From contig JAULBX010000226.1 in NCBI GenBank assembly GCA_032358255.1, positions 1-64,000 of the forward strand: 64,000 nucleotides of DNA, in the 5' to 3' direction. Each line of letters begins with the position of its first letter. The first letter of the stretch is position 1. Origin of the DNA: Heterotrichella gracilis. Its lineage: Eukaryota > Sar > Xanthophyceae > Tribonematales > Xanthonemataceae. Under the pieces are notes generated by a model. It was not told the origin of the DNA. It ran no database searches and worked only from the letters and a program-made list of their open reading frames with translations. A program made the translations under genes and the position numbers. Below are positions 3,221-52,260 of this stretch, in pieces.

Positions 3221-6200
3221 ATGGCTCGTAAGGACCGTGATGAGGAGGATGAGGAGCTAGAAGATGAGGAGGAGGACGAAGATTATGAAGATGGTGGGGA
3301 TGAGGAAGAGGAGGAGGAGGAGCGCCCTGGGAAGAAGCGCAAAGCAAGCAACCCCTTCATCGATGAGGCAGCAGAAGAAGACGAGGACGAGGTGAGTTTC
3401 ACCTTGCATGGACAGGACAATCGCCAGTAATGTGTCTGTGTTGGCGTGAAGTATATCCTATATGCATGCATGTGTGATCGGTGGCAAGTTGCAACCACAC
3501 GCGAGCATCGAGGCATATTGGTGCATGCACTGTTCTTGATAATTGCCAGTGGCCGTGCTTGTCACGATGCACACCTGTACGGTCCTGTGCCTGAATTCAT
3601 GCGTTGCCCATTTCTCAGGAGGAGGAAGCCCGCGCAAAGAAGCCACGAAATAGGTTCATCGACGATATGGCGGCAGTGAACGAGGATGACGAGGAGGAGG
3701 AAGAGGAGGTGAGTGGTCTCTGGGTTCCCTTTGCTTGTGGATTCCCTTGGGTTTGGCCAATCTGGTGTTCACTGCATGCTCGCCATATTCAGAGCCTTGC
3801 CACCTCCATGCTTTTCAACCAGCCAAGGCAAGCAACTGGGAACTACGCCAGTGTATTGCACTGCAGTAAGTATACACGGACTGAATGACTGGTTCACCCC
3901 CCAGGGTCCTGACCTCCAGTACAATTAGCACTCCCTACCAAGCACCCTGCCCAATAACTCTGCACTGAATCCAACCCAGCCAGACAACACCCTGTCCATA
4001 AGTGATCAAACACACTTCGAAACTGGGTTGGGGGGGTATCCCTTTCCTTACGCTGACACCGCCCTTGTCACCAATCACCAGTATTCCGGGCACCCCTCTC
4101 CTCACCCCGCACCTCACTTCTTGAAACCCTAAACCCTAACCCGCACCCTGCCAGGAGGGCGACGAGGACCTGATCGCCGGCGAGGACCTGGGCGAGGAGG
4201 TGGGGGCGCAGGACCACGCCAAGTACCGGCGCGCGGACATGCGGCGCCAGGAGGAGATGACCAACGAGGAGATTGAGGCCATGGCGCGGCGCTTTGAGGA
4301 GCGCGCGCAGCAGGGGATAGATGTGGAGCTAGAGGAGGCGGACACAGGTAAAGAGGGGGGTTTGGTGGGCGTGATTGGGGTGGGTGGGTGGGGTGGTGGT
4401 GGCGGGAGACCGGTGGCTGGAGACCGGCCAATGCACACAGCAAACTGCACCGGCAATGCCATTTTTGAGGCTAGTTTGTGGGTGATCAGGGTGCAGAAAT
4501 AAGGCATGTGGCCAGGGCAGAAAGCAAGCAGCCATGAATTACAGCATGCGGCAGCCTCACCACCTGCTCCCCACATGTCAGGACCCTAAACCCTAAACCC
4601 TTGCAGGCGCCGTTGGCCAGCAGGGCCTGCTCCCCACCCGCCAGGACCCCAAGCTGTGGATCATCGAGGTGCGCACGGGCAGCGAGCGCGAGGCCGTGGT
4701 GTGCCTTCTACAAAAGTGCTACGACGTGGCGGCGGCAGGCACGCCGCTGCTCATCAAGTCAGCGTTCTGCCATGACCACCTCAAGGTGGGTGGGGAAGGG
4801 GGGGATGTTGGGGACGGGACCTGGGGGCGCATCGGTTTCCTTGCTCTGCATCATGCAGCAATGCAGATAAGGAAATGGCATGATTTTGATTGATGGTGTT
4901 AAGGATGATGGTATTGGTGATGGTTTCCATGTTGCGCACCATCACGCACAAGGCTGCCCCATTGCAGACTACCCAGGCCCCAAGGCTTCATGCATACATT
5001 TGGGACACCACGCAGTGCATTGTGTTGACCCCACGTCTCCACACACGCCACCCCCGTACTCACTGCGCCCACCCCCCACCCCCGCCCAGGGCTACATCTA
5101 CATTGAGGCCACCAAGGAGAGCCACGTGATGGACGCCATCAGGGGTCTGAGGGTGGTGCGCGTGTCCAAGGGGGCCAGGCTGGTGCCGCTGAATGAGATG
5201 GTGCCCGCCATCACAGTCAACCAGGAGGCAAAGCTGCAGCTGGGTAAGGGAGGAGAGGGTTAGATCTATTGTTGTAATATTGCTGTAATATCTGTTGTTG
5301 TAAATCCTGTTGTTTTTTTGTTCCTTTGTTGGGGATTGGGGAAGAGTTTAAGGCAATCAAGGTTAACCAAGAGGCCAAGCTGTGCTGCTCAAAGGTCGGG
5401 GCGTATCAAAATGACCTTGCACCTTTTCCCCATAAATCCTAAATTTCACCCCACACCCGCACCCTGCAGACCGCGACTCCTGGTGCCGCATGAAGACCGG
5501 CGTGTACAAGGACGACCTGGCGCGCGTGGCGGACATCGACCACTCCTCAGGCAAGGCCACGGTGCAGCTGGTGCCCAGGCTGGACTACCAGGCAATGGCA
5601 AGCAGGGCGGCGGGCACGGGAGGGCCTGCACCGCCCTTTGGACGCGCACCCAAGGTGGGTGCTGTTTCCGTGGGGTAGAGGGGGTCTGCAGGTCGTGGGG
5701 AACACGTTGGCTTTGCACAGGTGGTAACTCAGTACACCATCTGCGTTGTGCCATGTGCGCCACGCGCCCCCCGTCTCACGCGTGACATGTGCAACAAATG
5801 CTCTTATACAATTTTAATGTAGAGAAACATACACTACGGTACTCACACACTTACCTTCTGCCTGATGATATATAATACCATGACAAATTCCCCCTTGCTT
5901 TCCCACAGATCACGCCCCCTCCCCGTGCCTTCAACCCTGAGGAGGCGCGAGAGATGCACCTGCCAGTGGATGTGCGCAGCGACAGGGTCACAGGTGGGTG
6001 GTGGCGGTGGGTGGGTGGATAGGGTTCCTGGCATGAGGAACCCCTCAGCAGCCCAGCGTACTAAGACAGGCATAAATCCTGAGCATGCATGCATGCAGAA
6101 CTCCGCGCGTGCTCCATTCTATCTGCACGCTGGAAATCAAGTGCTCGCAACCCTCCCAACCCTACCCACCCACCTACCCCAGCAACCCACTCACCCACCC

Positions 6201-9200
6201 CCAAGCCTCCCAACCTTCACGAGAACTGGAGTGACCCCCTGTCCCCCTCCTCCCCCCCAGGTGAGCGCTACTACCTGCTTGGCAGCCAGCGCTTCCAGGG
6301 CGGCTACCTCATCAAGTCAGTGGCCATCAGCAGCCTGAGGCCGGAGGAGGGCGTGCCCGCACTGGAGGAGCTGCAGAGGTTCAACGAGGTGAGGTTGGTA
6401 GGGTTTGGTAGGGTAGGGTTTAGGGTGTGGTAGGATTTAGGGTTTGGTAGGGTGAAGATGGGTTAAAGGAGGGCCGGTGGTGGAGGAGCTGCAGGTGGGG
6501 TTTGGTGGGGTTAAGGGTTTGATAGGGTGGACCATGTGTGTGGAGGGGTTTTGCTGGGGTGTGAACGACTGATGAAGCAGGCAATCTGGCCCCCACAGCA
6601 ACAGCAAACAGCAAAGTCATCAACACATTGCGGCATGACTCCCAAACGGCCGTGTTCTCCCACCCACCCCACCCCACCGCAGGCCTCTGCAGGCGGCGGC
6701 GAGGACGGCCCCACCAGCTCCATCTCCGCCCTGCTCACATCCATGCATGCCAGTGGCGACAAGGGCAACGCCACGCGCTACGCCAAGGGGGACAAGGTGA
6801 TTGTGACAGAGGGCGAGCTCAAGGGCCTGCTGGGGCGGGTGCGCAACGTGAACGAGGAAGGGCTTGTGGACATCGAGGCGGTGGGGGTGGACGACCTGGG
6901 GGGGGAGGCCATCCCCGTTGAGGTGGACCAGCTGCAGAAGTACTTTGAGGTGCGTGTATGGCATGCAGAATGACATGCATGTGGTGATTCTGAACGCAGG
7001 GGGTGTACTTGAATAATGTAATTTAAAATGAATAAAAACCATGTAAGTAGGTTTTATGTAGATGTACCCTTGTTTTGCTGTCTATGCATCCTCTAGAGGT
7101 GGACCAGCTGCAGAAGTACTTTGAGGTGCGGGCAAGGGTTTAGGGTTGAGGTGGGGTGTATGTCTAATCTCGCCAATTGGCTATGAAGTATGAATTCAAT
7201 GTTATTATGCTTAAGCTTGGATTTCCTGGCTTTCTGAATTTATCACACATCGTGCATGCTAACACATGCATGCCCTCCCCCACCGCGTTACTCCTTCTCC
7301 GCACTCGTCCCCACCCCCCTTACCCCTCCCCCCGCAGACCGGCAACCACGTCAAGGTGTCTGCCGGCCAGCACCTGGGCGAGACAGGCATGGTGGTGCTG
7401 GTGGACGGGCCCGTCATCCACCTGCTGTCGGATGCCACACGCCAGGAGGTGCAGGTGTTTGCACGCGACCTCACCGAGGCGGCGGGCGCAGCCATGCCGG
7501 CGGCCAACGACACGTGCGTTTGTGGGGGTTAAGGGGGAGGGTTTTGGGATAATGGATAAGCAAAATAATGTACAGGAAGAATGTTAAAGCAAGCATGTAA
7601 TACAGTATGTGGGGGGGGAGGGTGGGGGCATGTGGATCGCTCTGCATGCGGGGTGCTGTCTGCCGGCGTCTGTGGTGGTGCACGGCAAGGGCTGAAATGC
7701 ACTAGATGATGGCACCCTGTACCTTTACTCAATGCCCCCACAAAACCAGAGCTTTGTCCCAAACTCTCTGTGAAAAAACTCTGTAAGACCCTACCTAAAC
7801 CCCCCCTCCTGCCATCTACCCCACAGGTTGGGCGCCTTTGAGCTGCACGATCTCGTGGCCCTTGACCCTCAGACTGTGGGTGTGATCATCACGGTTGAGC
7901 GGGACTCGTGCCGCGTGCTGACCAACAGGGGCACAGCGGACCGGCCCGAGATCCGCACCTGCAGGCTGCCGGACCTCAAGCGCAAGATACAGCAGGTGGG
8001 GCAACTGTGCTGCATTGCAGTGGCTGAGGGTGTGGGGACGCCTGCATGTGGGGATTGCGCGCCTGCAGGCAGTCGGGTCTCGCGCATCGCTCCCTAGTGC
8101 CCTGGTTCCCCAGCACCACCAGGGGATGATGCTGTGTTTGGCTTGTGTAGGATCAGGTGGGGCGGGGTAGCGGTGAGGGGGCGCGCTGTGGTGGGGGATG
8201 ATCAGGAGGGGCATGCCAGCCAGCCATGCATGCACTAAAAGCACCCACCTCCTCCCCCGCAGGGCTTCCGCGATGTGACCCAGGACGGTGCCGCCAACCA
8301 GATCAACCGCGACGACATGGTCAACGTGGTGGAGGGGCCGGCAAAGGGCAAGTCGGGCACAGTGCGGTACATCGTCCGCGGCATGCTGTTCCTGCACTCG
8401 AGGGACAACTTGGACCAGGTATTTATTTCTTGAATTAGGATCTTATCACTAAAAATGAAAGCACCAGCAATGTACATGTAACAATGCAAGTGAACCGTTC
8501 CATTTAATGAATTGCACAATTTAATTCAATTATCTATTTAATTAAAATAGATTCACATCAATTACCTGCGCCGTGTTGTCTTTGCAGTACTCATCATTCC
8601 TTTATGTCCATCTTCACTGCTTGATCGCTTTTTCACTGTGTTGCCTGATGACGCTTTCTTTTCTGCCCCAGGGCGGGTTCATGTGCGTGTCGGCGCGCGC
8701 ATGCCGCATCAGGGGCGGGGCTGGCGCCAAGGGCACCTACCTGTCGCAGATGGGCAACCTCAGGTCGCCGGCGCCGCACAGGGCGGGCAACGAGCAGACA
8801 AGTGCGTGTTACTGGGGTGTAGGGGGGTGGCTTTGGGTGCACAGCCCCTGGTTCACGTGGGTGTCAGGGGGATCAGGGGGGTCAGTGTGCTGGCACCGCT
8901 GGGATGGTATTCTAAACGCTGCCATGCACCCCAGTACAGTGCATCTCACCCTGCCATGAGTCTAGCAAATCCACCTATTCACCCTGTCCCCGTACTTCGC
9001 AAACCTCAGGGTTGCGATACCTTACGGGACATGCACCCACTCACCCCAACGACCCACCTCCATTGCTCACCCCCTGTCTCACCCCCTCCTCCACACAGAC
9101 ATGCTCGCCTCCCCTGGCCGAGGCGGCGGCGGCGGCCTCCCCCCTCCACTGCCCGGAGCTTACGGCGGCCGCGGCCCCACCCCAGGCACCTTCTCGGGCC

Positions 9201-23535: not shown

Positions 23536-26500
23536 CTACACCTTGCCTGGAGGCACCGCATCCTCAAAAGCTGACGGCGAGCATGGCATTGGCTCCGCCA
23601 CCACTGGCGACACGCTCAAGCCAGCCAATGACACACCGCCATTGAACAAATCCCCGTTGAGCGAGTCCTGTTGGGTCAAAATTCACGAGTCAGTTCGGGA
23701 AGTGCAGAACATGTTCCGAGCGAATGTATATATGGTATTTACATTCCAGCTGTGAAGCCAGATTACCATGCCTGGGTATGCCTCACCCCAGTTCAAGAGC
23801 CACGGCTTGAATTTGCAAGTAATAGATGATGACGCACAATATATATAAGTAGAATGCAGCCTGTCCTTGAGCGGGTGAGCCGGTTGACAGGAGTCATAAA
23901 GCTCCAAAACCACCCTCCTATCACACTCAAAATACCACTGATAAGTTGAAGTCGTTCTGCTCCTGTCCCCTACCCTCACCTGCTGGTTCAAGTCATCCAG
24001 GCTGGAGCTTGACCCCGCCATGGGCCTGATGCCGCTGCCCTGCTCGTCCACCGTCACAATCTTCATCACGATGGTGTTCTTGATGCTCATGAGGCACACA
24101 ATGTGGTCGTGTGCGGCCACCAGGCCCTTGCGCGCGGCTGCCGAGACCACCTCGGTGAGCACGTTCTCGCTGGTGCCCGGCAGGGGGGTGGACAGGATGG
24201 GCAGCAGCCCTGGGGGTGGGGGGTGGGGGTGCGGGTGTTCAGTGCCACGGGTGGCTGTGAAGGGAAAGGTGGGTGATGAAGTGGTGTGGTGTGCACAAGG
24301 AAGCCCAACAAAGCAATGAACAGTCAATAAGCAACCCTGTGTGACCCTTCCCGTCACTCCGGCGCCACCACCGCTGACCAGCTGGCACTGCCAGGCTATG
24401 CTGCTGGCCCACCCTGCAGCTCCCACACAAATGGCCACCCACCCACGTCTGATCACCAGGCACTGCATGTCAATGCTATTCCCACGCAAATGGCCCACTT
24501 GCGACGGAGTGGCATTGGCAGGTTGAACCTACTGATCAGGCGTGGGTGGGTGGCTGGGTGGGTGATGCGCATGACCTGCCCACCCGCCCGTTCCGCATGC
24601 CATGGTCGGACCCACCTCTGACCAGTAGGCAATGCCTGGCTATGCTGCTTGCTGCCCACCCTGCCAACTTCCACACAAATGTCATGACCTGCTCCACCCA
24701 CTAACCAGGCACTGCCTGGCAATGCCACTCCCACGCAAACAGCATGCTCATGACTGAACCCCCCCCCATTCCGCACCACCCACCTCTGACCAGCAGGCAC
24801 TGCCTGGCTATGCTGCTTCCCTGCAGCTCCCATGACAGGTCGTTCTGCCTCAGGTTGGGCACCACCACTGTGAGCACAGGCACATGTGGGCGGTACTTGG
24901 CCACAAGCAGCGCGGTGCGACCCGTGTAGGCAAACACAATGATGAGCTTGGCCTGCGGGGTAAAGATGGTGGAATTGGGTTACCGTAGTAATGATGTTGA
25001 AAAGAGAAGATTATATCATGGTGTTACTTTGCGATGTTATCAGATTGGCTGTTGAAACAAACACATTGACCATTTTGGTTTGCAAGGGCGTGACGGGGCT
25101 GCTATTGTGCGTGCATGGCGAATACTCATCATCATTCTTGGATTTATTTCTGTGACAATTGTCATAATTTTGGTTACGTCTCTTGGCATGGGTGATACTT
25201 ACCTCCAGCAGGGCGGCCCGGTGCACTATTATGGACACTGGTGACTGCTGCGATGCACTGCTGGAACCCACGCATCTCTTTCACCCACCTGGATCTTGTC
25301 CTCAACCCTACACCCTACACCCACCTGAATCTTGTCCGCTGCGCGCACCGCCGATGACGCCATGGACTCCAGCTTTGAGAGGTAGGGCGAGCCGGTGTAC
25401 AGCCGCACGCTTGTGCCCGCTATGCTGGCCACACTGGAGGTGCGCTGCAGGCCGGTTGCCTGGAACAAGGGGTAATAAACAGGGATCAAATAAATAGGAA
25501 ACTATAGGAAACAAGGCTTATAGATGAGTATTTTGATTTCAAGGAAGGAGGAGCGCTGCGGGCCAGTCGCTTCAAGGGGAGGAAGATAACAATAGGACTA
25601 TTGGTATCTTTATTACCGTTAGTCGCCTGGAAGAAGGGGCAGAAATCAAAGATTGAAATGTTGAACCAGGCGTTGGAAACAATCGTTTCTAATTGATAGA
25701 AAGGTGCGGTGCAAGGCTGGGACAAGGGGTGCTAATACATGAACAATAGGCTTGGATGGTATCCATTTACATCCCTTCCAGCCGCTCATCCGCAGGCCCA
25801 AAACTTGCCTGGAACACGGCGTTGTAAAAAACCCCAAACTTGCTTGCATATAAAGCAACAGTTGTCAATTTCCATACTTGTAAAGGAAACGCACACATTG
25901 GTCCAACAGCTCCATGCATGCATGTCACTTGCCTGGAACGCCGCATTTGACTTTACCGAGTGCAACCCCCCCTTGGCCAAGTGGGGCGACCCTGCCAGGC
26001 GCACATCCGCCATTGAGCGCGACGCGTTTGGGCTCAACCCCTCAAGCTCCTCCAGCAGCTCTGCTTGTTGCTCCTGCAGGGTGTGCATTGTACTGATGGT
26101 CATTCTGTTATGTAGGCGAGTACTTCGGTGTGAGCTATCTATTTTTTATTAGACATAGCTGAAGTAATTCAACCTGTGAATGCTAACATCACACATCAAA
26201 CCCACTCCTGACCATCATGCATGCATCACCCTCATTTAACCCACCCTCACCAATCCCAGTAGTGATTGTCTGCGACCACTACTCCCTCCCACCCCTCTCA
26301 AGCCCCCCCCGACCCCCACACCCCCATCCACCTCCAGCGTTGGTTTCTGAGTCACACGCCCCCCCGTCAGCAATGTCCCCACCACCCACCACCAAAGACT
26401 CACCACCCCCCACCCGTCCTCACCCCCACCCACCTCCAGCGTTGAGTCCATGAGGAACTCGTAGTGGTTCCTGTGGTCAAATACCAGCTCCGCCTGCTGG

Positions 26501-34060: not shown

Positions 34061-37000
34061 ATGCAGTCTACGGCACGTCAGATGAGGCTCCAGGGCGCGG
34101 CCGGCAGTAAGTTTGGCACCACCCACATGCATGCACTAGTACATTCACTGCAGACCTCCTACACTCATTTTGCCAGTCGATTCTGTTCTCTTGACCCCTT
34201 CCACGCCACCCTACACACGCCACCCCTTCATACCCAGCCAACGCAAACAGTCCCAACAGTGCAAGTTGCAAGGCAAAGGCTTCGCCTTGTGTGTTCTCGG
34301 TTTGTCTTGCAAATTGCTCCCACAGGCACCTGCACCCCGCAAGCTACCTAGGCCTTGCGTCTCATACCCTACACCAAGCCCTGGCGCGGGTCAAGGCCCG
34401 CAACATGACAACTTGCTTATCCTGTGATTGGTGCCCTTGGCTTTGCAACCCCCACTTGCACCTTTGCACGCAAGCACGCATGCCCTGCGGCCCACTTCAA
34501 GAGTCATAATTCACAGAGGCGGGGCTTGCTACTGTGGCTCATGGCAACGAGCTGTCCTTTCTTGTACCTAGGGCACCTGCACTCTCTGGCATACGGCCCT
34601 TTGCACCCACATGCACCTCTACAAGCCATTGGCCCTTTGCTGCTCACCACCCACACCGAGCGCGGGCTCATTCCATTGTCATACCTCTACACCCCAAAGG
34701 CGCACGCCCCTCTGCATCCACCCACACCTCTGCAGAACACCCACGCCCTGTGCATCGTAACCCTCACTAAACCCTGGTGCACTTCAGGGGCCACTGTGGC
34801 GCCTGCACGGCCCACCCACCACCGCCCCTTTGCCCCCTGCCCCACCACACCACACCAGCCATGGGCCCGACCCACGGCCGCACGCCCCCACCTCACCCGC
34901 CTCTCACGGAGGTAAGCCCGTGAACCCTAAAACCCTAATCGCAAACCTGGCGGGACCAAAAGCTTGCCCCATGTTGAGGTGGTTCCCTAAACCCTATCCC
35001 TGAACCCTTGCTGAAACCCTTGTGTATGCAAGGGTTCTGCTCGTCAGCGCTAGCAAAGGAGATCAGCATTCTAATGTGGAGGGGCCATAGCCTGTACCTG
35101 GGCTGCAACCCGTGTGCCACTGTGCTGGTAAAACCCTTGCGCTTGCTGAAACCCCAATGTAGGGTTTTGCTGGTGTGCGTCTGCAACAGTGAGGAGCCTG
35201 TGGTAGGAGCCTGTGGTAAATTCCTGGGCTGAACCCCTTGTGCGCGGTAAACCCCTTATGATTGATGACACCCTCTTGCAGGGGTGTGCCGGTTCGCGCC
35301 AGCAGCGAAGACCAGCCTCCTGAGAAGCGGGCACCTAAGGTCATTTCCTGGGCTGATAAGATTTTTGAGGAGGACTACAGGATCAAGTGCAAGGAGCTGG
35401 AAGAGTGAGTGGCGCTGATTATTTGTTATGAGTGAAAAATACGAAGCTTTAAAGCCTGTCCTTGGACAGATGTATTGGTGACAAACGAGGAGTTGGGGAA
35501 TAGAATAACACTCACCGCGGTATACAATCCTCCGTACCCCACTAAGACAATAAACTGGACCTCCCCCCCTAATAATACGGTACACAATACGACCTGTAAC
35601 TGAAATTTTTCTTATCAACCCCTAACTGAACCTGTTATTTTCAACCTCTGCCCTGATATGACGATAATAGGATGATTGCAGGCGCTGGCCAATGGTGGAT
35701 GCCAAACCCTTAACCTCCAACCTAAACCCTAAACCCTGCATCCCCCCTCCCAGAACGGAGCAGCGTCTGGAGCATGTGCTGGCCAACAGTCACTCTCAAA
35801 CCTCAGACCCTAATCCCTAAACCCTTACACCGTAAACCCTAATCCCTTATCCCAAAACCCCCCTCTTAGGACTGAGCAGCGTCTGGAGCAGGCGGTTGCC
35901 AACGGTGACCCTGAGTGGTCCATCAAGCTGCTCAAGTGGGCCAAGGAGGGCCAGATCCAGGGCCTGGTCAGGGTGGTGGAGGCGCAGAAGCAGCTCAAGG
36001 ACTGGAAGAAACTGGACGAGGTAGGGTGGATGGGGGGGATGACTGGGTGGGAAGAGCGGGATGGGGAATGGGGTTGGGGAGGGGGCGCGGGCGCACGGAT
36101 GGTGTGTGGTGAGGTGGGGTACGGCTGTGGGTTTTAATAGGCATCCAGGGGTTAGGGTTTGGTGGGGCAACATGGATCCACGCGCTGGTTGAGCTGGCAG
36201 AGGCCCAGCAAGCAGCTAGACAGCTGAGGTACATATACTGGATCGTTGCTTGATTGGCGACATGCGACCACCGTCATGCACCCCTTTCCTCCCCATTGGT
36301 CTGACGCACCCCCTGCTCCTCCAGGAAATCCAGCGCCAGCTGGCATCTGAGCAGATGGCTGCTGCCAAGTGGGCGCAGGAGACTGTGCAGCGGGAGGCGC
36401 CCCTCGCGCAGAAGGACATAGAGGAGTAAGTACCCTAGACCGGGGGTCTGGGATAGGGTTTGGAGTGTATACCATAGGCCAGGGTTATGCTAGGATTTTC
36501 CGTGCATCCCCAGCAGGGTTGGCTCAGTGTTTGGAAGTGCATACCCTAGGTTGGGGTTTGGAGTGCATCTTAGCTGGGGTTTGGGCTAGGGGGGCAGAAG
36601 GCACCCATCGTGCAGATGGACTTAGAGGAGTGAGTGCATACCGTAGCCTTGGGTTGAGCACTTGCTTACAGACTGACTAGAGAAGAAAGAAAGGAAGGGA
36701 ATGCACAAAGGCGGACTTATGTGGCCACTGGTTTGCACCAAGTCACCACAGACAATCAGCCAGGACAATTGATTAGGCTGTTAGGCTTATGCCTCACGTT
36801 GTGGAGTGAACATCGTTCTTCGGGTTTGGGTTTTGAGGGTTCGGGGGTCCGTGCCCTAGGCCGGGGTTTGCCTGGTCATGTAGTCACATCCAGCTGTATC
36901 TGGCTATACTGTGGAATAACCCATTACCCCCAGCAATACTCCTCCCTGAACCCTAGACTCAACCCCAATGGTACCCGCAGGCAGCACAAAACCTTAAACC

Positions 37001-40000
37001 CCAATCTACTTGAAGCCTGAATGCGGCCCACCTGCCGGCTGTCCGGAAACCCTAACCCCAATCCCTTGAAACCCTAACGTCGACCTTGCGCCTCGCAGGC
37101 TCCAGGTGATCCTGGCCACCATGCGCGCTGAGGGGTACCCCCAGTGGGCCATCAACATCGGTGAGTCGCTGCTCAAGTGGAGGAAGAGGAGCTTCACAGC
37201 AATGATGGAGGAGGCGGTCAAGATGTCACAGGTGGGGGGGTGGGAGGGGGGGTAGGAATGGTGTTTGCAACACGTGTTGGGGGGTAGGTGGAAGGGGAGT
37301 GTAGCCAATGCATACGTTTGACCCTAGCCAGAGGGTTTCTATGCAGCTACGCCACGCATTGCCTCGAGACTTCTAGGGCCAGCATCCTCCTTTAGGTTTC
37401 TGGTCATGCGCCAGTAAACCCTTATGTAGGGTAAGTAAGTAAGTAAGTAAGTAAGTATTTGCTTTCCAGCTTCGAAGCCAGGTTAGCATGTCTGGGTATG
37501 CCTCACCCCAGTCCTAGAGCCAAGGCTTAACTGACACTCTTTCAAGTGTGGCAGATAATGGCCAACCAGTCGTGCCGCTTACCGCACTTTCGTGCTCCCC
37601 ATTTTATCCCGTCGCAAAGGGATAATGTAGGGTATTGAAGGAATATATTGATTAATAACAGATTATCCTGATACAGTTTCGGCCAGGGCAGGAGGGCACA
37701 GGGTCCATACGCAGACACCTTGAAATGCGCAGTGTTCACAGATGGTATACGGTACAAAGTGCCACCATAGGGCTGCTTGGCTCTGGATTGGGCTGCTTGT
37801 GCAAAACTGATCACCTTGCTGTGCTTCTAGAATGCAAATACCATAGGGTAATTTATTTAGTATATGCCACCCCCCAACCTACCCCCCCTTCCCACTCATA
37901 TTCTCCCCTATGCCCTCTCCCCCAACTACTCATTTTACCCACAGCCTCCCCTCTTGCTACTCATTTCCTCACACGCGCCACCCCTTTGCACCTGCAGCCA
38001 CCACCCCCACCGGATTTCAAGCCCTCAGATCAGCTTCAATCCCAAGAGCAGTCGCAATCCCCAGAAGAGCGCATCAAGTCCCCAGAGGCCAGCCCCAGTG
38101 GCCAGGGTGGGGATCAGGAGCGGCACTATAGGGTTCCAAGTTCCTGGGAGGATTCAGAGGGTGAGTGATAGCGGGGAGGAGGAGGGGAGTGGGGTGGGCA
38201 CTGCGTTTGGGGATTTGCACGCTGCATAGTTGGGTGTCTCACATCTTGCCCCAATCACAACGAGCCTCATCCCCAATCCCCAAACCCCAACCCTGAATCC
38301 CCACCTGCAGACTTCCTTGACCTCCAGCCCATGAGCAACGACAACAGCTACACCTACCTGCTAGGGTATGGCTTCTGGACGCTCATCACATGCTCGGCGT
38401 TCTATTGGCTGCTGGGGGTGGACCCGCTGCAGGTAGGAAGGGTTGTGGAGAACCCTAGCAAGGGTATTGATAGGCCCTAGCAAGGGTTTGTTCTGTGTTG
38501 CGTATTACTGGCTGCTGGGGTGGACCCGCTGCAGGTGGCACAACCCTAGGATGGACAAACTCCAGCTAGGGTTTGTGGTGTGTTGCGATGTACTGCATGC
38601 AGGGGTGGACCCGCTGCACGTAGGAAGGGTTTTGGAGAATCCTGACAAGGGTGTTGCAGAACCCCTGCAAGGGTTTGTACACATTGCATTTCCTGCTGCT
38701 GAGGGTGGACCCGCTGCTGGCGCGGGCGGATAGGATCAGCCGCAGGCTAGGCTTCCTGCTACGGTTCAGGCTTTGGGGTTGCGGGGATGGCCCAGGTTAA
38801 GGTTTGCAGTGGCAAGTGCCAGGGCTGTCCCTGGGAATCGATGTTTGCAACAGAGGACGGCTTCTAACACTTGCCCCAGCTGTGTGGATGGTCGCGCACA
38901 CACCCACCACCCCTCCTCCTCTTGTGCAGGCGTGGGTGTTCCCCCACTTGGATTTGGCTTCCGGCCAGCAGTGGCTCGCATGGACCCTGCCCTACATGGG
39001 GGCCACCGCACTCACCTGGTGGCAAGGGGGGCAGGGCTGGTCACCCGCGTACCCAGCAATAAAGAAGGAGGCGGAGGACATGGCGGTGAGTAGGGTTGAG
39101 AGCTGGGGTCTAGGGTTTTGGGGCGGGGCGGTGGGTTTGGGTGGTGGTGCAGGAGGCGGGGTGTAAGGGTGAGGGGGGTGTAAGGTTTGGGTGGTGATGC
39201 CTGCGCCGGATTCTGCTCTGAACACCCTAAAACCCTTGACAATAAAACCTGCTTGTCTGGAGTTGACCCTAGTTAGCACCCCAACCACCTTGAACGCCCT
39301 GTTGTCAAATGTGCCATTCCCGAAAACAACCCACCCTGCTCAAGGAAACACCGTTCTTGCGCCAATTTGCTGCTGCCCTAACACCCCACCCTCCACCCGC
39401 AGTTTGTGTTTGGCAACGTCAACTGGCTGACCCTGGTGGGGGCGGTTGTGGTGGTGGCGGGGTGCGACTGCATACTGTACCAGGGGTGCCTCCTCAACCT
39501 ATTGAAAGGCTTGAACGCACCCCTCCCTATGCCAAGTGACCCAGAGATGGTGGAGCAACAGCTCAGGTGGGGTGGTGGGGTGGTGGGGTGGGTGGTGATG
39601 GCGGCGGCGGTGGTGGTGATGGTGGCAGTGGGTGGCTGAAGCTGGCGGTGGCTGATGTGGTGGTGGTGCAACCGTATCCTGTACCAGAGGTGCCTGCTGA
39701 ACCTGTTGAAGGGCATGATTACATTGACGTTATTTTTAATTATTATTTTGTTCTTTTTAAAGGTGGTACTTGATCACAATCGACCAAAAGTTGATCAGAA
39801 TTCCCGGGAGACTGTTCCCGGGAGCCTGTTGCAATTGGCTCATTGTAACAGGGCCACTGGCAAGGCTGCTTCCCTTACCAGCTTCTTGCCATCCCCCATG
39901 CTGTGCCCCCTGCCCTCGTTCCTAAGTGCCCTCTGCTGCGCCCCCTACCTGCATTTCTGACATTTTGCGTCCAATGTGCAGGGCCGTGATGGGGTCCATT

Positions 40001-41679
40001 GTTGAGCCGCGGCCCCTGCCCACCTTCCTGCGGTCCCCTATGCTGGCGGTACAGGTTGGCGCCTTCGGTGCAGTGGCGTTCAGCCTGTTCTCGGAAGCAA
40101 GGCAAGACGGGCCTGAGATACAGTAAGTGATGTAGGGTTTAGGGTTAAGGGTTTTACTGATGTCATAAGCAAGGCAAGACGGGACTGGGTACAGTAAGTG
40201 GGTGTAAGGTTTAGGGTTTTGGCGTGGGAGACGTCAAGTGGGAAGTAGTTTGTGAACAACAACAGACTGTCCTTGAGAATCGATGGAATACATACCAGTC
40301 CAATACCTGCGTTTGGTTGTTTGGATCATTTGTTGTAGCAACACAGGGTTTCACTGGTTGAGGTTGACGTGGAGTTCTTAGGAATACAGTAGCCTACTTG
40401 GAACCCTACCCAAAACCCTAACGAGAACCCTCCTTGGCTTGCAGGGTGGTCACTGATGGCACCACCACCAAGGCCATGCCCGTGCTGGACATGCCTGGCC
40501 AAGGGGCAGATCCTGATGAGCTCCTGACCATTCAGGTGGGGAGGAGATGTTGATTGCTGTACAGCACGTAGGCGGTTGAGTAGAAGTGGAACGCACACAT
40601 GTGGGCAAAAGTGCTGCATTCACCAATGATCTAGGCGCGTTAAACCCGCCAAACCGCAGAGATGGTATACTCAGTGCCAGGACAGGGCTGGTGGGCGCAA
40701 TGCATGTAGGACTGGCTGCTAATCTGGCTGTACTGCTGGACCGCATGTACGTCATCATCATCAACCTTTGTCATTATTCCCAAAGGTATTTTGCTGTATG
40801 GCTTGAACGCATGTACCGAACACTGACCACACTGTTATCACCAATAAGCATTGCCAATATTCTCGCAGGTGTTTGGCTCCCTCCAGAAGTTCTGCCTGGC
40901 TGCCTTCCTGACCCTGGAGACCCTGTACACCGGGAGCCTGCCGCTCACGGTGGCAACGGCAGCTGCCGGGTACCTGGTGGCCGAGGCATATGCGCGCAAG
41001 TTCAGGAACAGCTACGACAGCGAGGTGGGTGGCGGGGGGGTGCACACATTTGGGGTGTATGTGGACGGTGGGTGGGGGTATGCATGTGGCGTGTGGGTGT
41101 GGGTGTGGGGGGAAGGGAGAGGGAAAGAGCTGAACTCTTGCGTGGCAACTGCGGTACCTGGTTATAGTAGTCATGGAGGTGTTGGCAACCGGTCCCCAAC
41201 TGCGGCCCCCTCTGCTCCTGGTTTCCCTTAAACCCTAAACCCTAAACCTTGCCCATACTATAGTGTTTGACGTTCAGTCGATCCTGTTGGTCTGACCTGT
41301 TCCCCCCCCCCATGCGTAGGTGGCTGAGATTATGGAGCAGGCGCTGGCCGCCATGGGGGGACTGGGCGTGCTGGGGGGCATGGGCATGGGCATCGAGGGT
41401 TTTGGGGAGGGTGTGAACGTGTATGGGGAGGAGGATTACGACGACGAGGACTACGATGAAGACGAGGAGGGGGAGTATGGGGATGATGATGACGAGGATG
41501 GGGATGATGATTTCCCTTTTGGTTCGGATGGGGATGACGAGAGCCCTATCGTGGACGTAACTTTTGATGAAGCTGGGGACGTGGAGGGTGGCGGGAATGA
41601 CAAGGATTTGGACAGGGATGAAGGTGCAGATGGATTTATAAGGGAGTTTGAAGAATGGGTTCAGGGTGGGAAGTTGTGA
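34061..41679 (+). CDS. Unrecognised probable plastid membrane protein with acidic C-terminus
   Basis: Fourteen exons: 34061-34106, 34788-34911, 35282-35404, 35870-36020, 36325-36425, 37099-37231, 37998-38160, 38311-38432, 38930-39085, 39403-39566, 39982-40122, 40445-40535, 40869-41024, 41320-41679. Phases join to 676 aa. Residues 1-65 are rich in Arg, Ala, Thr and Pro with no acids and end RGVPVRASSED, a typical chloroplast transit peptide with VRA cleavage. Then a soluble helical domain (about 65-225: ISWADKIFEEDYRIKCKELE), a Pro/Ser/Gln linker, about five hydrophobic segments (including YLLGYGFWTLITCSAFYWLL and NWLTLVGAVVVVAGCDCILY) and a C-terminal 100 residues that are mostly Asp, Glu and Gly. 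Its family was not recognised; plastid inner-envelope or thylakoid location is inference. Several introns carry exon-edge echoes. Confidence 0.75.
35742..35790 (+). repeat. Echo of exon 4 acceptor and start (plastid-protein gene)
   Basis: An AG acceptor followed by gagcagcgtctggagcatgt... at 35742-35790 copies the real exon 4 border at 35860-35910 (gagcagcgtctggagcaggc). The interval contains several CCCTAA-type motifs. The copy differs enough in sequence to suggest divergence after duplication. Confidence 0.8.
36591..36640 (+). repeat. Echo of exon 5 end and donor (plastid-protein gene)
   Basis: 36591-36640 copies 36396-36434: the same gcagaagg..cat/tagaggag followed by a GTGAGT/GTAAGT donor. 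The copy lies about 200 bases into the intron, in direct orientation, and retains a consensus donor. Confidence 0.78.
37465..37531 (+). repeat. Dispersed repeat R2, copy b, next to an (aagt)n microsatellite
   Basis: Matches 23745-23812. It is preceded by about seven tandem aagt units at 37433-37458. It lies in the intron between exons 6 and 7 of the plastid-protein gene. Confidence 0.75.
38497..38725 (+). repeat. Three echoes of exon 8 end and donor (plastid-protein gene)
   Basis: The exon 8 end ctgctgggggtggacccgct plus donor (38410-38450) recurs at 38497-38538, 38578-38640 and 38684-38725. The first keeps CAG|GTGG; the second has CACGTAGG with the following 'aagggtt.tggaga' copied too; the third continues into GC-rich sequence without a donor. 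The spacing of about 90-100 bases gives a degenerate tandem array. Confidence 0.85.
39666..39714 (+). repeat. Echo of exon 10 interior (plastid-protein gene)
   Basis: 39666-39714 (ctgtaccagaggtgcctgct..) resembles 39463-39512 inside exon 10 (ctgtaccaggggtgcctcct..). Both read LYQ(G/R)CLLNLLKG in frame. The copy is in the following intron. An alternative is that it is a mutually exclusive exon piece, but no good acceptor was seen before it. Confidence 0.7.
40166..40200 (+). repeat. Echo of exon 11 end and donor (plastid-protein gene)
   Basis: The sequence aagcaaggcaagacggg...tacagtaagtg at 40166-40200 copies 40096-40130, including the GTAAGT donor. The 35 bases between them are mostly TTTAGGG-like (tagggtttagggttaagggt). 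Confidence 0.88.
40697..40755 (+). repeat. Dispersed repeat copy R1b
   Basis: Matches 12-58 (R1a) and 58910-58975 (R1c) over about 45-60 bases; the shared core is gactgctaatctggct. It sits in an intron of the plastid-protein gene. All three copies are in plus orientation. The origin is unknown. Confidence 0.6.
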
Positions 41680-44640: not shown

Positions 44641-45345
44641 TGGGCAAACACGGTAACAAGAAGCGGAAGGGAACACAGCCAGGACAGGCCCAGCAGCCGC
44701 TGCAGCACACCCAGGCGCAGGCCCAGCAAACCCAGGCGCATGTCCAGCAAACCCTGACGCCACAGCCAGAAGCCACACAGCGGCCCACAGACGTCTCTAT
44801 AGCTATGATGCTCCACAGGTTGGAGCAGGTGCAGGAGCAGCTAACGCAGCTGTAGCAGAAGGGGCAGCAGCATAAGCAGCTGTGGCAGCAGCATAGGCAG
44901 CAGATAACTGTACTACTGGAGCGCAGAGTGAAGGCTGTTTCAGAGGAAGTGGTGCTCCATGGCTGTGGAAGGCAGCCACACACTGCAAAGGAAGTCGAGG
45001 CATTCTCCCTCCTCCGAAAGAGCGAAGCTGGGCAGCGCCTGGTGGAGGACCTGCTCAACAACACAGACGCTGCACATAAGCTTCTGGGTAGGAGGTGCGC
45101 GTGTGCAACGCGTTCGACAAGGCCATCGCCGATTGGAGCAGCCTGTACCACCCTCCCATGGAGGACGTTTTTGATGAAGCAAAGAGGCTGTACAGCGCTC
45201 TGGACCCGTGTACCAAGAGTGCGCTGCGAGCGTCCTGGCCGCAGCACATGGCGGTGCTGAAGATTGCTGCCCACCTGCAAGCTGCAACACTCAGCCACCT
45301 TCCTAAGCCGCGGGACATAGCTGAAGCAGACAGGCAGCGGCCATA
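44641..45345 (+). pseudogene. Broken Q-rich ORF, possibly transposon-derived
   Basis: Starts MGKHGNKKRKGTQPGQAQQP and runs 71 codons to a TAG at 44853. The same frame continues sensibly after it (QKGQQHKQLWQQHRQQ...) to LLNNTDAAHKLLG, so the TAG looks like a mutated CAG. A frame change near 45088-45095 is needed to reach VRVCNAFDKAIADWSSLYHPP and the end at 45345. A donor-like ggtaggag lies at the frame change, so a short intron is possible, but no acceptor fits. The basic start, Q-rich coiled region and a globular second half would suit a gag-like or unknown host protein. The family was not recognised. Confidence 0.4.
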
Positions 45346-46864: not shown

Positions 46865-49800
46865 ATGTGGTCGTCAACACAGGCGCTGGGTAGGTTAGCT
46901 GAAGGTGGTAGTAGCTCCGCTGGCAAATACCAGCTGCCCACTTGCCAGCTCAGGAGCACGCGCATGCTGCAACAGCGCGGTCTCCGCCATGCCAGTATCA
47001 GCGCAAACACACAGCATCCCTTGCGGCATCGAGCCACACGGCAATATCCGGGTAGGAGGGTGCTACAGTACTGTGTAAGGGCCGAGCAGAAGCCCAACCC
47101 TGCGTGCGAGCCAGCCACATCCAGCAACAGCAACAGCTCGACACATGCAGAGCCCCAGCCCTCCCAGCCAAAGGCCTCAAGCTCCAGGGACCAGCAGCGG
47201 CCGCATGCCCCCGAGGATGGCCCCTCCTCGTCCACAAACACGGTGTATGGCAACACCGTGAAGCCTTTTCACCTGGCCGTGTTCTTTGCTATCCTGGGGG
47301 GAGGCATCGCCTTTTTGTCCCTCCTCCTCTACATCACAGCGGACACCTCCATACAAAAGGCCATCCTCAAAGTGTGCCGACGGCTCTTCAAGACCGTGGC
47401 TCTGCGCCAGGTGCTGGGGATCGTGGGGGCGATGGTGTTTGTGCGGTTAGGGCTGGAGCCGCTAGTCAAGTCGATGCGGCAGTCGTTTGGCGCCAGTGGA
47501 GCCTGGGAGAAGTCCTCGGAGTACTACGTGATCAGGGAGGTGAGTGCAGGGGGCTAATAGGGTCTAGATTGACCACCCTGCAGGTCCCAAGTTTGTTAGT
47601 CTAGCCCCCCAACATGTATGCGCAGATTGGCCTTTGTCACTGTAACACAACTCCAGAATTAAAGTGTGTCGCTGCACTTTGGCACCCATCTGGTTTTCTG
47701 CAAGTTTTGTAAGGTATACGGGCCACATGTATGCAACTGGCACACCCAAACGTTGGGGGCCTCGTGGTGTGGAAGGGTCGGCACTTGGCAGCTACTTGTG
47801 AAGGGCAGGAGTGCTAGGCGCATAGCCATCAGTGGTAGAAGCATCCCACCCGGGCATGCCTGCTGACTGTTAAGTGCACCCTCCTCGCACTTGGCACATC
47901 CTAGACACGCTCGCCCCAAACCCCAAGTGTCACTTGGCCCAAAAAACCCTTGTCTTGAACCCTTGACCGCCTGTGCACAGGTGTACCGGCCGCTGGAGTT
48001 CCTGTTTGTGATTGCTGCTGTGGCCACACTGGCCGAGAACTTCCTGCCGCAGCTGATAGCCATACCCAAGGTGCGCGCCTCGCCACTTGAACCCCGCCTT
48101 AGGGCATACGCAGGAGGCCATACACACACTGCGCACCTCCCACTTGGCACCTACCATAGGGCATATGCAACGTCTTCGGTTGGTCCTGTCACGTGCACGT
48201 AGACCAGTGCCTTTTGTTTTGAAAACATATGGGAAACGAAAACATGGTTTCGCCTGGCCCTGTCATATTCACATTCCCTGGACCCTGCACTCACACCTCT
48301 CCACACCCCACCCTGCACCCTACGCCCGCACGTGCCCTAACCCCTATCCTGTGCACCCAGGGCCTGGTGCAAAACGTCGCGCGCACCATCCTGTCGCTGA
48401 CCTTCGTGATTGCCGCTGCGCGCGTGACCATGAACATCAAGAGCCGCATGACGCGCGAGATGACCTGGGAGCTGGAGCTCAAGGGGGACATCACCAGGCA
48501 AAGAAGGTGGGGACCCTGGTACAATTTAACGTGGAGCGCGGGGTCTGGTACCTGCTCAACGTCTGCCCACAACTCAGGATGTACCACTGCTACTGGTGGT
48601 GCTGCAAGCCATAGCCATAGCCTGGTTTGCTTGTAGCAACAGAAACTAGGATGTAAGAGATGAGCTAGCACAGGTTCAAGCCAATATACACGCATGCAAG
48701 TGTGGCTACTGCAGCACCTTCGAACAGGAACTCCTGCAGCCGGCGTAACGCACAACTGCATAACGCACTAGCGCACGCGTGGAGCAAACTGTTTCTTTGG
48801 CTTGCAGGGTTGAGGCTGTGGACAAGCTGCTCACCCTGCTCACCCTACTGGTGGCCTCGGTGCTGGGTCTGCAGGCAATCGGGCTGGACGTAAACTCGGT
48901 GCTGGCCATTGGGGGGGTGGGTGGTCTGGCTGTGGGTCTGGCTGGGCGGGAGATTCTTGAGAACCTGTTCACGGGGCTCATCATCCTGTCTTCAAACCCG
49001 TTTGAGGTGCGCACAGGTTCAAGGGGATGGTGTGGGGTGGGTGGAAATGCGGTTAGGGGCTTGTGCATGGGGAGAAGGCATGTGGGCTGGGGAGATGTGG
49101 GTCTGGGCGGGCGGGATGTCCTTGCATTTGCTTGGATGAGGATCAAGATCTTGCATGATATATTCCATCACATGCATGACGGTACCTGCACTAGGTCGAT
49201 ACCCGCACGCTTGAAATTACTCACTCGCATGATAAACTCAGCTGGGGCATTCTCACCATTCATGTCATCACACGTTAGCTCCAAGCAGCAGTCGAATAGG
49301 GTAGTCATGGGCCACACCACCTGCAAGCCCTGCAGCATGCATCGCACCATGGGTCCAGCTCTTCATTATGAAATTTGCAGCCTAGCACGAGGTTGCACAG
49401 CTGATACCTTCCACCTCAAACTGGCTGTTGCAACCCCCAGCGTTGCCTCAGCATTGCACAACACGAGGCTGTTACAAGATCCTTCATGCATTTAACACCA
49501 TAGCCGCCCCCTCTCCGTGCCCAGGCCACGCCCATCTCTTTTTTGCTAATCAACCTCCAACCCTCCTTATAACCTCTTTGCAGCTCCTGTGCTTACACCC
49601 TTTCATCCCCATCCCCTAACAACCCCATCACCCCCTACCCGTCCTTAGGTTGGCGACGAGATCCTGTTCCGGCCCAGCAAATCTTAAACCCTAAACCCTA
49701 CGCTCTTTTTACCCTCAGGTTGGCGACGAGATCCTGTTCCGCCCCAGCAGCGGCCAGGTGATTGAGGGCATCGTGCTTGACGTGGGCTGGTACCGCACCA

Positions 49801-51912
49801 CCATCCGCAGCTTTGAGCGCGAGATTTACACCATCCCCAACAGCGTGTTCTCGCGCAACGTGGTGCTCAACATCACGCGCAAGCAGAAGGAGTGGAGGTT
49901 CTACGAGTTCCTGGGTGCGTGGGGGATGGGTGGGGGTGGGGGTGGGGTGGGTTCTGGCTTTGGCATGGTGGTGCCTATTTTGGGTCAGCAGTCAGCCTTG
50001 CACATGCTGCGCCAACTTGCTGGGTCCTGGCACTGTATGCTAACGAGTTAGTAGGTGTATTGGATTAGTATTCATGCTCTTGCACTTTGTCACCCATCTG
50101 CACCCTCCTTTCGTCGCGTTCCACCACGCACCCCTCGTCCCCTCCCCTCCTGACACCCTTCCCTCCCACCCCTCAGCCCTGCGTGTCGAGGACATGTCCA
50201 AGGCGGGTGCTGTGGTGTCTGACATGCGCAAGATCATCCGCCAGGACCCGCGCATCATCCAGAAGCTGCACCGACGAGTGTTCCTGGACAAGGTGCGCGG
50301 CAAGGAAACCCTTAGGGTTTGGGTCAGCATGTGCGTGGTACCTGTGCGCATGTGTGGGCAGGGAAATGCTTAGGGTTTGTGTTGCACGGCAGGAATTCAA
50401 AATGTTTGTGACAGCATGTGCCTACTACCTGTGCGCATCATTTCAAAGCTGCACTGGCGCATGTTTCTGGAAAGGCGCGGCAGGGAAAACACTTAGGGTT
50501 TTGTGGTTTGCAGCGGGGAAACTTTAGGGATTGTGGCAGCATCTGCATGGTACCTTGTACGTATGTATAAAACAGATTGCAAGAGTGCGTGTATGTATGC
50601 TGATTTTTACACACCTCCACTTACTGGATTGAACACAGCAGCTCCAGAACTGTGAAGGCCAAGGAACCCCCAACGGCCTGCAGTTCCTCCTACGGCATCC
50701 CTCACGCCCAACCCCCCCTTCAGGTGAACATGGAGCAGCTCCAGATCTACGTGTCCTTCTACGTGGAGGCCAAGAACCGCGACGCCTTCATGGCAATCAA
50801 GCAGGATCTGCTGCTGGCGTTTGCAGACTGCGTGGAGCGAAACGGGGCGCGCCTGGCTCGCAAGCGCATGCAGGTGGGTGGGCGGGATGTGGGGTTTGGG
50901 GGGGGTGGGGTAATGCGTTTTGGGTGGCGTGGAGGAGGGGTGTGGATAGGGCATGTCACATAACTTATGTGATTGTGGTGTTCTCAGAGAGGGTCATGGA
51001 CAAAGAGTGCAACATGCATGGGAGGGTAGGATTCCCACGTACCTTTTTCAACCTCCAATAGATCATAGATGAGCCCCTGACCTTGCCCCCCTCCGTGTGC
51101 AGCTCGAGTGGGTGCAGGCGCCCTTCCAGGCTGCGGTCCCCGCCAAATCCAGCGGCGGCAAGGATCCCGAGGGGGCTCCCCGGGACAGCAAGGCACTGGC
51201 ATCAACCTCCAGCTCGGGAGCGGTGGATGTGGCTGCCGGACCACCCAACAGCCCGCAGCCAGGGGGGGAGAAGGGGCCGGAGGGGCAGAAGGCCGCGCCA
51301 AGCACCGCCGCTGGCGCGCCGACGGCAGGTGGGGATCTGTGCAGGGCTTGTGGGTCATGTAGGGAAATGAGACCTGTGCGGGGTTGTGGTGCGGTTGGCA
51401 TGTGCTGGCGCCATGCGTTGTGCAGCCCGGTGGGCATTGCGCACACACCTTCACCACGCTACCACCACCACTGGCTATCAGTATGCGCCACAGGGGCCAT
51501 GTGCCCTCCCCATCTCGAAATTGCAACATGATGCAGACCGGCAGGAAGCACTCCCTCCTATTTCACGGAGCACACCCCTTGTCATGGTGCATCCATTCCT
51601 CACGCTCGCACCTTCCTCCCCTCCAAACCCGCAGATTGCTCCCTCCCCTGATCGGCCCAGGCACGGCCTCCATGGCCCTTTCTTTCGCTCACCTCCTGTT
51701 GCCTCCCTCCTCAACGCGCGCGCGACCTGCTGCCTTGAATTAAATCCTTCCCCTCCCTCCCCCTCCCCTCTCTAGGCCTTGACGCCGCCATGGCCGCCGT
51801 TGCTGCCGCCAAGGCCGTCAGCGCGGATGACATCATGGAGGGATTTCACCAGGAAGGGGGCCTGGTCACCGGGTCGTGGGATGATCTGCCGCTGGAGAGC
51901 CTGGCTACGTGA
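46865..51912 (+). CDS. MscS-like mechanosensitive ion channel, plastid type (MSL/MSC1-like)
   Basis: Forms a stretch-gated channel that relieves osmotic stress in an organelle membrane. Nine exons: 46865-47539, 47981-48070, 48361-48506, 48808-49006, 49719-49914, 50177-50292, 50724-50873, 51103-51328, 51776-51912. Phases join to 644 aa. Residues 1-73 are Arg/Ser/Gln-rich, ending RRVLQYCVRAE, a transit-like presequence. Predicted membrane segments: about 135-158, 180-200, 229-247, 259-277, 310-330, and the pore-lining helix 333-363 (GGVGGLAVGLAGREILENLF). This helix is the MscS TM3 pattern and leads into the beta domain (NPFEVGDEILFRPSSGQVIE and IYTIPNSVFSRNVVLNIT). The cytosolic or stromal tail (525-644) is Pro/Gly/Ser-rich. 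Relatives are plant MSL1-3 and Chlamydomonas MSC1; whether it is plastid or mitochondrial is inferred from the presequence only. Confidence 0.93.
49649..49679 (+). repeat. Echo of channel exon 5 start with acceptor
   Basis: An acceptor-like cttag followed by gttggcgacgagatcctgtt... at 49649-49679 matches exon 5 start at 49719-49749 with a single mismatch. The 39 bases between include aaaccctaaaccct, a telomere-like motif. It is a potential alternative acceptor, 70 bases upstream. Confidence 0.92.
50434..50503 (+). repeat. Echo of channel exon 6 end and intron start
   Basis: 50434-50503 imperfectly copies 50249-50325 (gcgcatcat, aagctgca, gtttctgga, gcgcggca, then aaa.acttagggttt). The copy includes the exon end and the first part of the intron with its telomere-like motif, showing the motif was present before this duplication. 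Confidence 0.68.
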
Positions 51913-52054
51913 CACCTGGCGGGGGGGTATTTGGGGTGGGAATTGAAATATTTCAAAGAGGTAGTTGACAGCTGCAGCACGCGCAGGACAGCTATGGAGT
52001 CCTCAGGGTGGATCACAGTAGGTGGCATTTAATCATAGGGGACGACCTGCCACG

Positions 52055-52260
52055 TGGGACGACCTGTCGCTGGAGAGCCTGGCTTTCTGACACCTGGCAG
52101 GGGAGAATGGGTGCTGGGGCCCCAGAGAGGAGGGTCGCTGGGGCGGGTCTTGATATGCAGCTCCCATCACCCCCCCCTGTGCACCCACCTACCCTCGCGC
52201 TGGAGAGCCTGGCAACGTGACACCTGGCATGGGGGGAATGGGGGAGAGATCTTGAGGATG
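52055..52260 (+). repeat. Two 3'-flank echoes of the channel C-terminal codons
   Basis: The end of the channel gene, cgctggagagcctggctac followed by the TGA stop and cacctggc (51891-51925), is copied at about 52069-52100 and 52199-52232. Flanking sequence (acagct..gcacgcgcaggacagct) is also repeated, so the unit is roughly 130-180 bases. In both copies the stop codon is kept. Confidence 0.85.

Follow-up and report, generated by a model that had tools for sequence, protein, structure and literature searches.

In primates, proximal duplications mediated by the repair of DNA breaks have been reported with filler sequence at the breaks, and two duplicated exons were without detectable coding constraint (Pace et al. 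2009, PMC2671141). In mouse cells, fill-in of 3' overhangs by CST/Pol alpha leads to small tandem duplications (Schimmel et al. 2021, PMC8355091). Nergadze et al. (2007, PMC2246262) described telomeric repeats inserted at breaks, which in some cases came with random additions or a duplication of the target site. A tandem duplication across one intron-exon boundary of the potato RdRp gene was absorbed by splicing (Ma et al. 2016, PMC4974935), and the gain of introns by AGGT tandem duplication (Rogers; Hellsten) is described in the same paper. Interstitial telomeric repeats are mentioned in a paper on Chlamydomonas telomeres, in its available text not as a feature of introns (PMC6549138). No description of a genome-wide pattern of exon-edge copies was found among the papers listed, as judged by titles and the beginnings of abstracts, with few subscription journals covered.

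The copies studied here, called echoes, are same-strand copies of an exon edge in the adjoining intron or 3' flank. They resemble the duplications of Pace et al. (PMC2671141), in which linked copies at breaks are accompanied by filler and include splice sites and exons. However, donors of the 'partial exon/intron' type made up 4 of 824 in the human data (Table 2 of that paper), whereas edge-spanning pairs are the largest class here (52/131). The range of distances also differs, since human pairs were within 5 kb and the pairs here were searched within 600 nt. In potato RdRp (PMC4974935), one gene was involved and a new intron arose from an exonic cryptic donor, whereas here many genes are involved and old introns are lengthened.

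The window analysed in this study covers the initial 64 kb of a contig of 160 kb, and the assembly comprises 68.5 Mb in 903 contigs. To judge by the gene set and the TTTAGGG-type repeat, the genome is a nuclear one, probably of a green alga. Statistics are based on 244 kb (about 0.36% of the genome), comprising the window and 18 of 24 stretches of 10 kb; the other six, of which four were AT-rich, one was withheld and one overlapped the window, were left out. Gene models were produced by a small two-strand gene finder, self-trained on the sequence without RNA-seq or transcript support. With a low intron penalty the predicted genes were too fragmented and that version was dropped, and the stricter model converged on a consistent splice consensus with CAG/GTGNGT-like donors and TGCAG/G acceptors. 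Ten genes were predicted in the window. Pfam matches were obtained for six of the eight gene products or parts scanned, i.e., SPT5, a protein kinase (of CDK type by our reading), pyruvate kinase, an MSL2/3-type mechanosensitive channel, a TB2/DP1/HVA22 protein and an ADP-ribosylglycohydrolase; a 'PAC1-like' gene, which the original prediction had named among the hosts, could not be identified in the window. The main echo sites of the window are as follows.

6920..6954, plus strand: SPT5 source, made up of the exon tail, which ends at the donor after 6949, and 5 bases of the intron; SPT5 homologues support this edge
7096..7130, plus strand: SPT5 echo, lying in the next intron and identical at 35/35 bases; the 141-nt spacer shows no significant homology
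24784..24818, minus strand: pyruvate kinase source, exon tail at donor, edge 24783/24784
24610..24650, minus strand: pyruvate kinase echo of the 24784 donor edge, matching 24778-24818 at 95% over 41 nt
24368..24405, minus strand: second pyruvate kinase echo of the 24784 donor edge, 92%; further partial copy at 24439-24477
25282..25301, minus strand: echo of donor edge 25325, source 25318-25337, 19/20
25803..25823, minus strand: weak echo of donor edge 25933, 86% against 25927-25947
26319..26342 with 26421-26444, minus strand: donor-like pair, 23/24; the gene model does not settle which copy is the exon edge
27534..27558, minus strand: pyruvate kinase source at donor edge 27543, edge supported by a solved-structure homologue
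27428-27452, 27361-27386 and 27253-27280, minus strand: pyruvate kinase echoes of 27543 in the following intron
27685..27738, minus strand: pyruvate kinase source, exon head at acceptor, edge 27730
27894..27947, minus strand: pyruvate kinase echo of acceptor 27730 in the upstream intron, 52/54 identical
35858..35903, plus strand: source in predicted gene g6, exon head at acceptor 35870; echo 35742-35787, 83%, with telomere-like tracts between
38408..38434, plus strand: g6 donor-edge source (after 38432); echo array 38510-38536, 38595-38656 and 38695-38720, intron parts also homologous
40167..40187, plus strand: echo of 40095-40115 (exon end 40122), 20/21
49713..49749, plus strand: channel-gene source at acceptor edge, exon from 49719, edge supported by a solved-structure homologue
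49643..49679, plus strand: channel-gene echo upstream in the intron, 35/37
49680..49712, plus strand: channel-gene spacer of 33 nt, 19 bases of which are a telomere-like CCCTAAA tract (49683-49701)
51875..51925, plus strand: channel-gene stop-codon end, source; 3'-flank echoes 52053-52103 and 52198-52235

In the SPT5 and channel genes, exact or near-exact exon parts are separated by spacers (141 and 33 nt) without detectable homology, and at other sites arrays of repeats occur (g6, 38408-38720; pyruvate kinase intron, 27250-27560). Exact copies of 35 and 37 nt had been claimed; the SPT5 copy is indeed identical over its 35 bases, but the channel copy differs from its source at two of 37. It had also been claimed that the splice site is usually included; in one set, that at 51875, 52053 and 52198, the stop-codon end of the channel gene and not a splice site is copied into the 3' flank. 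Homologues with solved structures could be aligned without insertion at donor edge 27543 of pyruvate kinase and at acceptor 49719 of the channel gene. The acceptor edge at 27730 is less firm because of small gaps in the alignment of the pyruvate kinase homologue near it. The copy at 49713..49749 was taken as the channel exon because reading on from 49643..49679 in the frame of the exon meets a stop codon, as seen by eye.

In the window, 11 exon edges, some of them resting on gene models, carry about 18 copies. This count omits three repeats within exons (548, 9720 and 10276) and four pairs off edges (30647, 50317, 51967 and 63287). With four weaker edges (4606, 6388 and 36425 at scores of 14-16, and 25933) the number rises to 15, so that the 'at least fifteen places' of the original prediction was about right. 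Two of the 12 listed window edges, 24413 and 52093, probably belong to predicted exons that are themselves echoes. The repeat at 10276-10382 consists of 42-nt tandem units, an in-frame length, in the SPT5 C-terminal region. The pair at 63287-63344, near the end of the window and outside predicted genes, is a tandem one with a 30-nt period and 28 exact bases.

Local repeats are strongly biased toward the direct orientation. At a score of at least 20 under the stricter, earlier filter, the window held 14 direct pairs, no inverted pairs and none in three order-2 block shuffles. That filter lost long pairs of mixed composition, e.g., 27685/27894, and was then replaced; the improved filter gave 28 local direct-repeat pairs at a score of at least 17, and a laxer search gave 37 direct families and seven inverted pairs. 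In the sampled stretches outside the window (AT-rich and window-overlapping ones included), 59 direct vs 6 inverted were found, and none in shuffles. When each intron was compared with its own flanking exon in the sampled 244 kb, using probes from the exon side only at a score of at least 18, a copy was present in the adjacent intron for 45 of 672 edges (8 of 680 having been dropped), that is, about one exon edge in fifteen, whereas the reverse-complement probe and a random other intron gave 0 each. At a score of at least 14 the numbers were 63 edges vs 1 and 0, respectively. Same-strand copying close to the source thus occurs beyond chance, as in repair-mediated local duplication, and the pattern recurs outside the window, the 45 edges being the count over all 19 loci. 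The echoes are unevenly spread: the 18 stretches of 10 kb have on average 1.9 edges each, with a range of 0 to 8 and a variance of 4.8, and the window has, by the same measure, seven edges or 1.1 per 10 kb. Four sampled stretches, L004, L005 and L022 on contig C1 and L018 on contig C100, have 35-38% GC, long uninterrupted ORFs and no local repeats; ORF coverage is 78-88% in three of them and 65% in the fourth, and one of the contigs is 894 kb, the longest among the contigs listed. The two contigs are probably bacterial DNA, from a symbiont or a contaminant.

The copies are concentrated at edges. In a scan with 40-nt probes at a score of at least 16, hits were obtained for 46/664 probes at -40..0 and 46/660 at -20..+20, vs 68/2458 in the intron interior (four non-overlapping bins, +20 to +180; Fisher p=3e-6) and 12/620 in the exon interior at -80..-40, with reverse-complement rates of 0 to 0.5%. 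The excess at edges over the intron interior is about 2.5-fold, and 28 of the 45 exon-only matches reach right to the edge.

The anatomy of the copies was studied in 49 junction echoes at 42 junctions, in which the copy lies in the intron beside that junction. The distance from copy to copy is 67-412 nt, mostly 70-220, and the ungapped match has medians of 35 exon bases and 8 intron bases. From ungapped profiles, homology appeared to end at the splice site, a reading that gapped tests upheld only in part: 31 of the 49 show homology that continues past the splice site into the intron (p<0.05), and intron homology beyond +6 is not significant in the other 18. In 26 of 49 cases the spacer is homologous to the intron sequence that follows the echo (p<=0.02), the remaining 23 being without such homology, and four of the 14 echoes with at most 6% exon divergence have no intron homology in either test. 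Judged from these alignments, the homology of flanks and spacers indicates that the echoes are tandem duplications with decaying intron parts. The exon parts diverge by 9.6% and the aligned intron parts by 18.7% in substitutions (43 of the 49 echoes, extent at least 25), values that are approximate given that the alignments were optimised and some were non-significant. The ratio of about 1:2 would be as expected if one exon copy is constrained while both intron branches decay.

Mismatches in the 45 echoes with full codon phase (the other four lacking it) amount to 50/589, 42/587 and 87/584 at codon positions 1, 2 and 3 (8.5, 7.2 and 14.9%). Among 152 changed codons, 94 are nonsynonymous and 58 synonymous, and in-frame stops occur in three of the 45. 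The synonymous share is 0.38, vs 0.29 expected without selection; the surplus was ascribed to synonymous changes of the exon itself, and weak constraint on some echoes is also possible. The codon pattern is largely that of an unconstrained echo beside a constrained exon, i.e., of near-neutral decay, and constraint on both copies, as in duplicated alternative exons, was not found across the 45 echoes, although a few may be weakly constrained. It is therefore unlikely that the echoes are working exons or come from mixed haplotypes.

Some features could still suggest that the echoes are alternative exons or decoy splice sites under selection. The splice dinucleotide is intact in 33 of the 36 echoes that reach the edge, the 19 acceptor echoes keep a pyrimidine tract (0.67 vs 0.65 in real acceptors and 0.52 in random intron), the synonymous share is raised as given above, and the SPT5 echo was called an in-frame exon of nine residues by the gene finder. 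However, those nine residues are absent from the best-matching SPT5 chain among solved structures; the mismatches at codon positions 1 and 2, the excess of nonsynonymous changes and the stops also speak against function; and 33 of 36 does not significantly exceed the 0.81 of a low-indel neutral simulation at the observed age (p=0.13), though it does lie above the 0.74 obtained when the simulation included more indels (p=0.008). Such function is considered very unlikely.

It is highly improbable, too, that the pattern is an artefact of the assembly, in which divergent haplotypes were concatenated or repeats misjoined. The assembly is fragmented, and near-identical full tandem copies are rare (two of 34 young pairs with coverage >0.8), as collapse would cause. 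However, copies from two haplotypes would differ mainly at third positions, which the echoes do not, their exon-part identities span 75 to 100%, and for neither the SPT5 region nor the spacer 27739-27893 did a search skipping simple repeats find another match in the genome. The range from exact to decayed copies agrees with the earlier claim that the process has acted over time, and same-strand local duplication recurring in many unrelated genes is likewise supported.

The claim that tandem duplication across AG/GT junctions might give birth to introns was not supported. The present echoes share with AGGT intron gain (as described in PMC4974935) a local tandem duplication near AG/GT, but the geometry required there, a match on the donor-on-acceptor diagonal, was absent at a score of at least 12 in all 403 introns. 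At a score of at least 10 two introns were found, both scoring 11 and one of them in the window at 25459/25932, vs a control of 0.17 per diagonal. Introner-like transposons, the other route to new introns, should leave a repeat family. Spacers of at least 25 nt in the sampled stretches gave 79 cross-matches at E<=1e-3, from 10 spacers; the 30 listed of the 79 are short (18-38 nt) and, as far as they were read, telomere-like, and among these listed matches no repeat family was found apart from the telomere-like tracts. This agrees, for the matches listed and the two regions searched genome-wide, with the earlier statement that no transposon signature accompanies the copies. Local duplications do occur at AG/GT junctions, but intron birth by either route is an extremely improbable explanation. 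What the echoes do go with is the lengthening of old introns, as had been proposed, with a mean of 476 nt in echo-bearing introns vs 348 nt in others. A noncoding element of 134 nt at 42422-42555 of the window is shared at 95% with L008:2460-2593 on a different contig and has weaker copies at 36683-36747 and 21852-21935, being thus a dispersed short repeat.

Whether edges are special in the making of the copies or only in their survival was approached by simulations, the parameters of which were set by hand and not fitted; the functional splice site was unprotected in the first runs and protected in later ones. In the simplest case, units of 50-300 nt would be tandemly duplicated at random positions in genes and would then decay neutrally; edges would stand out since the protected exon copy decays on one branch and not on two. 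The spacer homology in 26 of 49 echoes and the 1:2 divergence are in line with this, and random relocation of the observed pairs alone would put 28.8 of 131 on junctions. However, 52 of 131 lie there. The observed junction:noncoding ratio is 1.44 (52:36), the median intron side is 8 nt and the exon-internal:junction ratio is 0.33, with 17 exon-internal pairs in the set. At the observed age, as given by codon positions, random duplication yields ratios of 0.51-0.65 and median intron sides of 12-29 nt, and the counts of 52:36 observed vs 334:656 simulated differ significantly (Fisher p=4e-6). Older ages with more indels come near the observed values, with 1.17 and 6 nt when the splice site is unprotected and 1.35 and 11 nt when it is protected, but these settings overshoot the exon-internal:junction ratio (3.06 and 1.32, respectively), and the protected one leaves only 0.64 of splice dinucleotides intact vs 33 of 36 observed. 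Random duplication by itself is thus a possible but rather unlikely explanation.

Duplication with filler and no bias gave junction:noncoding ratios of 0.24-0.29 and 15-21 nt, and when events centred outside exons were kept at only 5-20% the values were 0.99-3.66 and 12-22 nt; when duplication with filler was centred on exons, exon-side length and coverage approached the observed values. This better fit of exon-centred models could point to copying that is directed to splice edges or exons, for instance through breaks or switches of template associated with splicing, R-loops or exon chromatin, with the copy ending a few bases into the intron. Among the 11 echoes of at least 95% identity, intron identity is about 0.5 at +6 to +10 and about 0.25-0.38 beyond, and the run of 28 of 45 exon-only matches to the edge fits as well. 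However, stop-codon ends are also echoed (51875 and, among the matches listed, one in stretch L006), where there is no splice site, homology extends into the intron in 31 of 49 echoes once gaps are allowed, and the effect is partly accounted for by selection against events inside exons. Directed copying is judged unlikely. No simulated setting of random or exon-biased duplication with decay matched every measure, and the exon bias is thus partly unexplained; it seems that either the events must be biased toward exons or purely intronic copies must be lost faster than was modelled. The label 'exon-edge' given to the echoes in the original prediction accordingly reflects in part differential decay and selection, yet the 2.5-fold excess at edges exceeds the simulations at the observed age.

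A further feature, absent from the original prediction and new in this analysis, is the association of echoes with telomere-like tracts, defined as matches to a 12-mer of the CCCTAAA/TTTAGGG repeat in which no more than one base differs. Such bases number 2220 of 244,000 vs 105 in one shuffle, and make up 1.59% of introns, 0.43% of intergenic sequence and 0.06% of exons. In the spacers of echoes they reach 10.5%, and a tract is present in 18 of 46 spacers (three of the 49 being <20 nt). Tracts occur in 20 of 36 echo-bearing introns vs 45 of 297 others (Fisher p=2.9e-7), so that short telomere-like tracts lie at duplicated sites as do the interstitial telomeric repeats of break repair. The share is higher with an echo in each of four length classes (2/2 vs 5/62, 2/6 vs 16/121, 10/21 vs 17/88 and 6/7 vs 7/26), some of which hold very few introns. 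As in Nergadze et al. (PMC2246262), telomeric or telomere-like repeats are thus found at duplicated or break sites; however, duplication concerned a minority there (6 of 130 loci in rodents and 4 of 25 in primates), whereas here the tracts cluster in introns that bear duplications. The orientation of tracts relative to the nearer copy (9:5 against 8:7, p=0.71) departs from the simple prediction of telomerase acting on both ends, and being non-significant it does not confirm the simplest telomerase model.

Taken together, the echoes have probably arisen by local duplication during error-prone repair of DNA breaks inside genes, often with filler, and have then been filtered by whether a usable splice edge remained. 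A staggered break or a pair of nicks may be filled in, or a resected end may recopy nearby sequence, and a stretch of roughly 30-100 bases would thereby be duplicated beside itself, the two copies either abutting head to tail or enclosing filler. Such filler would often include telomere-like repeats, as if telomerase or captured telomeric DNA had acted on the open ends; possible filler is seen in the 23 of 49 spacers without homology and in the 18 of 46 with a tract, although filler and older intron look alike here. We infer that duplications inside exons would be lost since they break the protein, and that those carrying an edge would be tolerated because splicing can use one copy and treat the other as intron. 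The surplus copy would lengthen the intron and decay neutrally. Tens of bases are also duplicated at staggered breaks by CST/Pol alpha fill-in (PMC8355091), and the complex involved is telomere-associated; unlike here, neither telomeric repeats nor a splice-edge pattern is described in the available text of that paper. The process is an unusually intense form of a known one. A stronger version, in which break repair of this lineage prefers exon borders and joins local fill-in duplication to telomerase-type addition, with introns growing mainly by exon-edge copies and telomere-like filler, is doubtful.

How old introns grow longer is difficult to see, as the origin of most inserted sequence can no longer be recognised. 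Here the conserved exon edge stands beside its copy, so that the single events can be dated and their breakpoints determined, and if the stronger version were true, splice edges would hold a self-dating record of intron enlargement. Gene prediction can also be led astray by echoes that carry splice signals, as was the gene finder used in this study. The coupling with telomere-like tracts points to a repair pathway that can be tested. Within introns the tracts are strand-biased, sense TTTAGGG occurring 46 times in the 5' half and seven times in the 3' half, vs 27 and 31 for sense CCCTAAA (strand difference p=8e-6); TTTAGGG contains AG and may be selected against near acceptors, or the tracts may help splicing.
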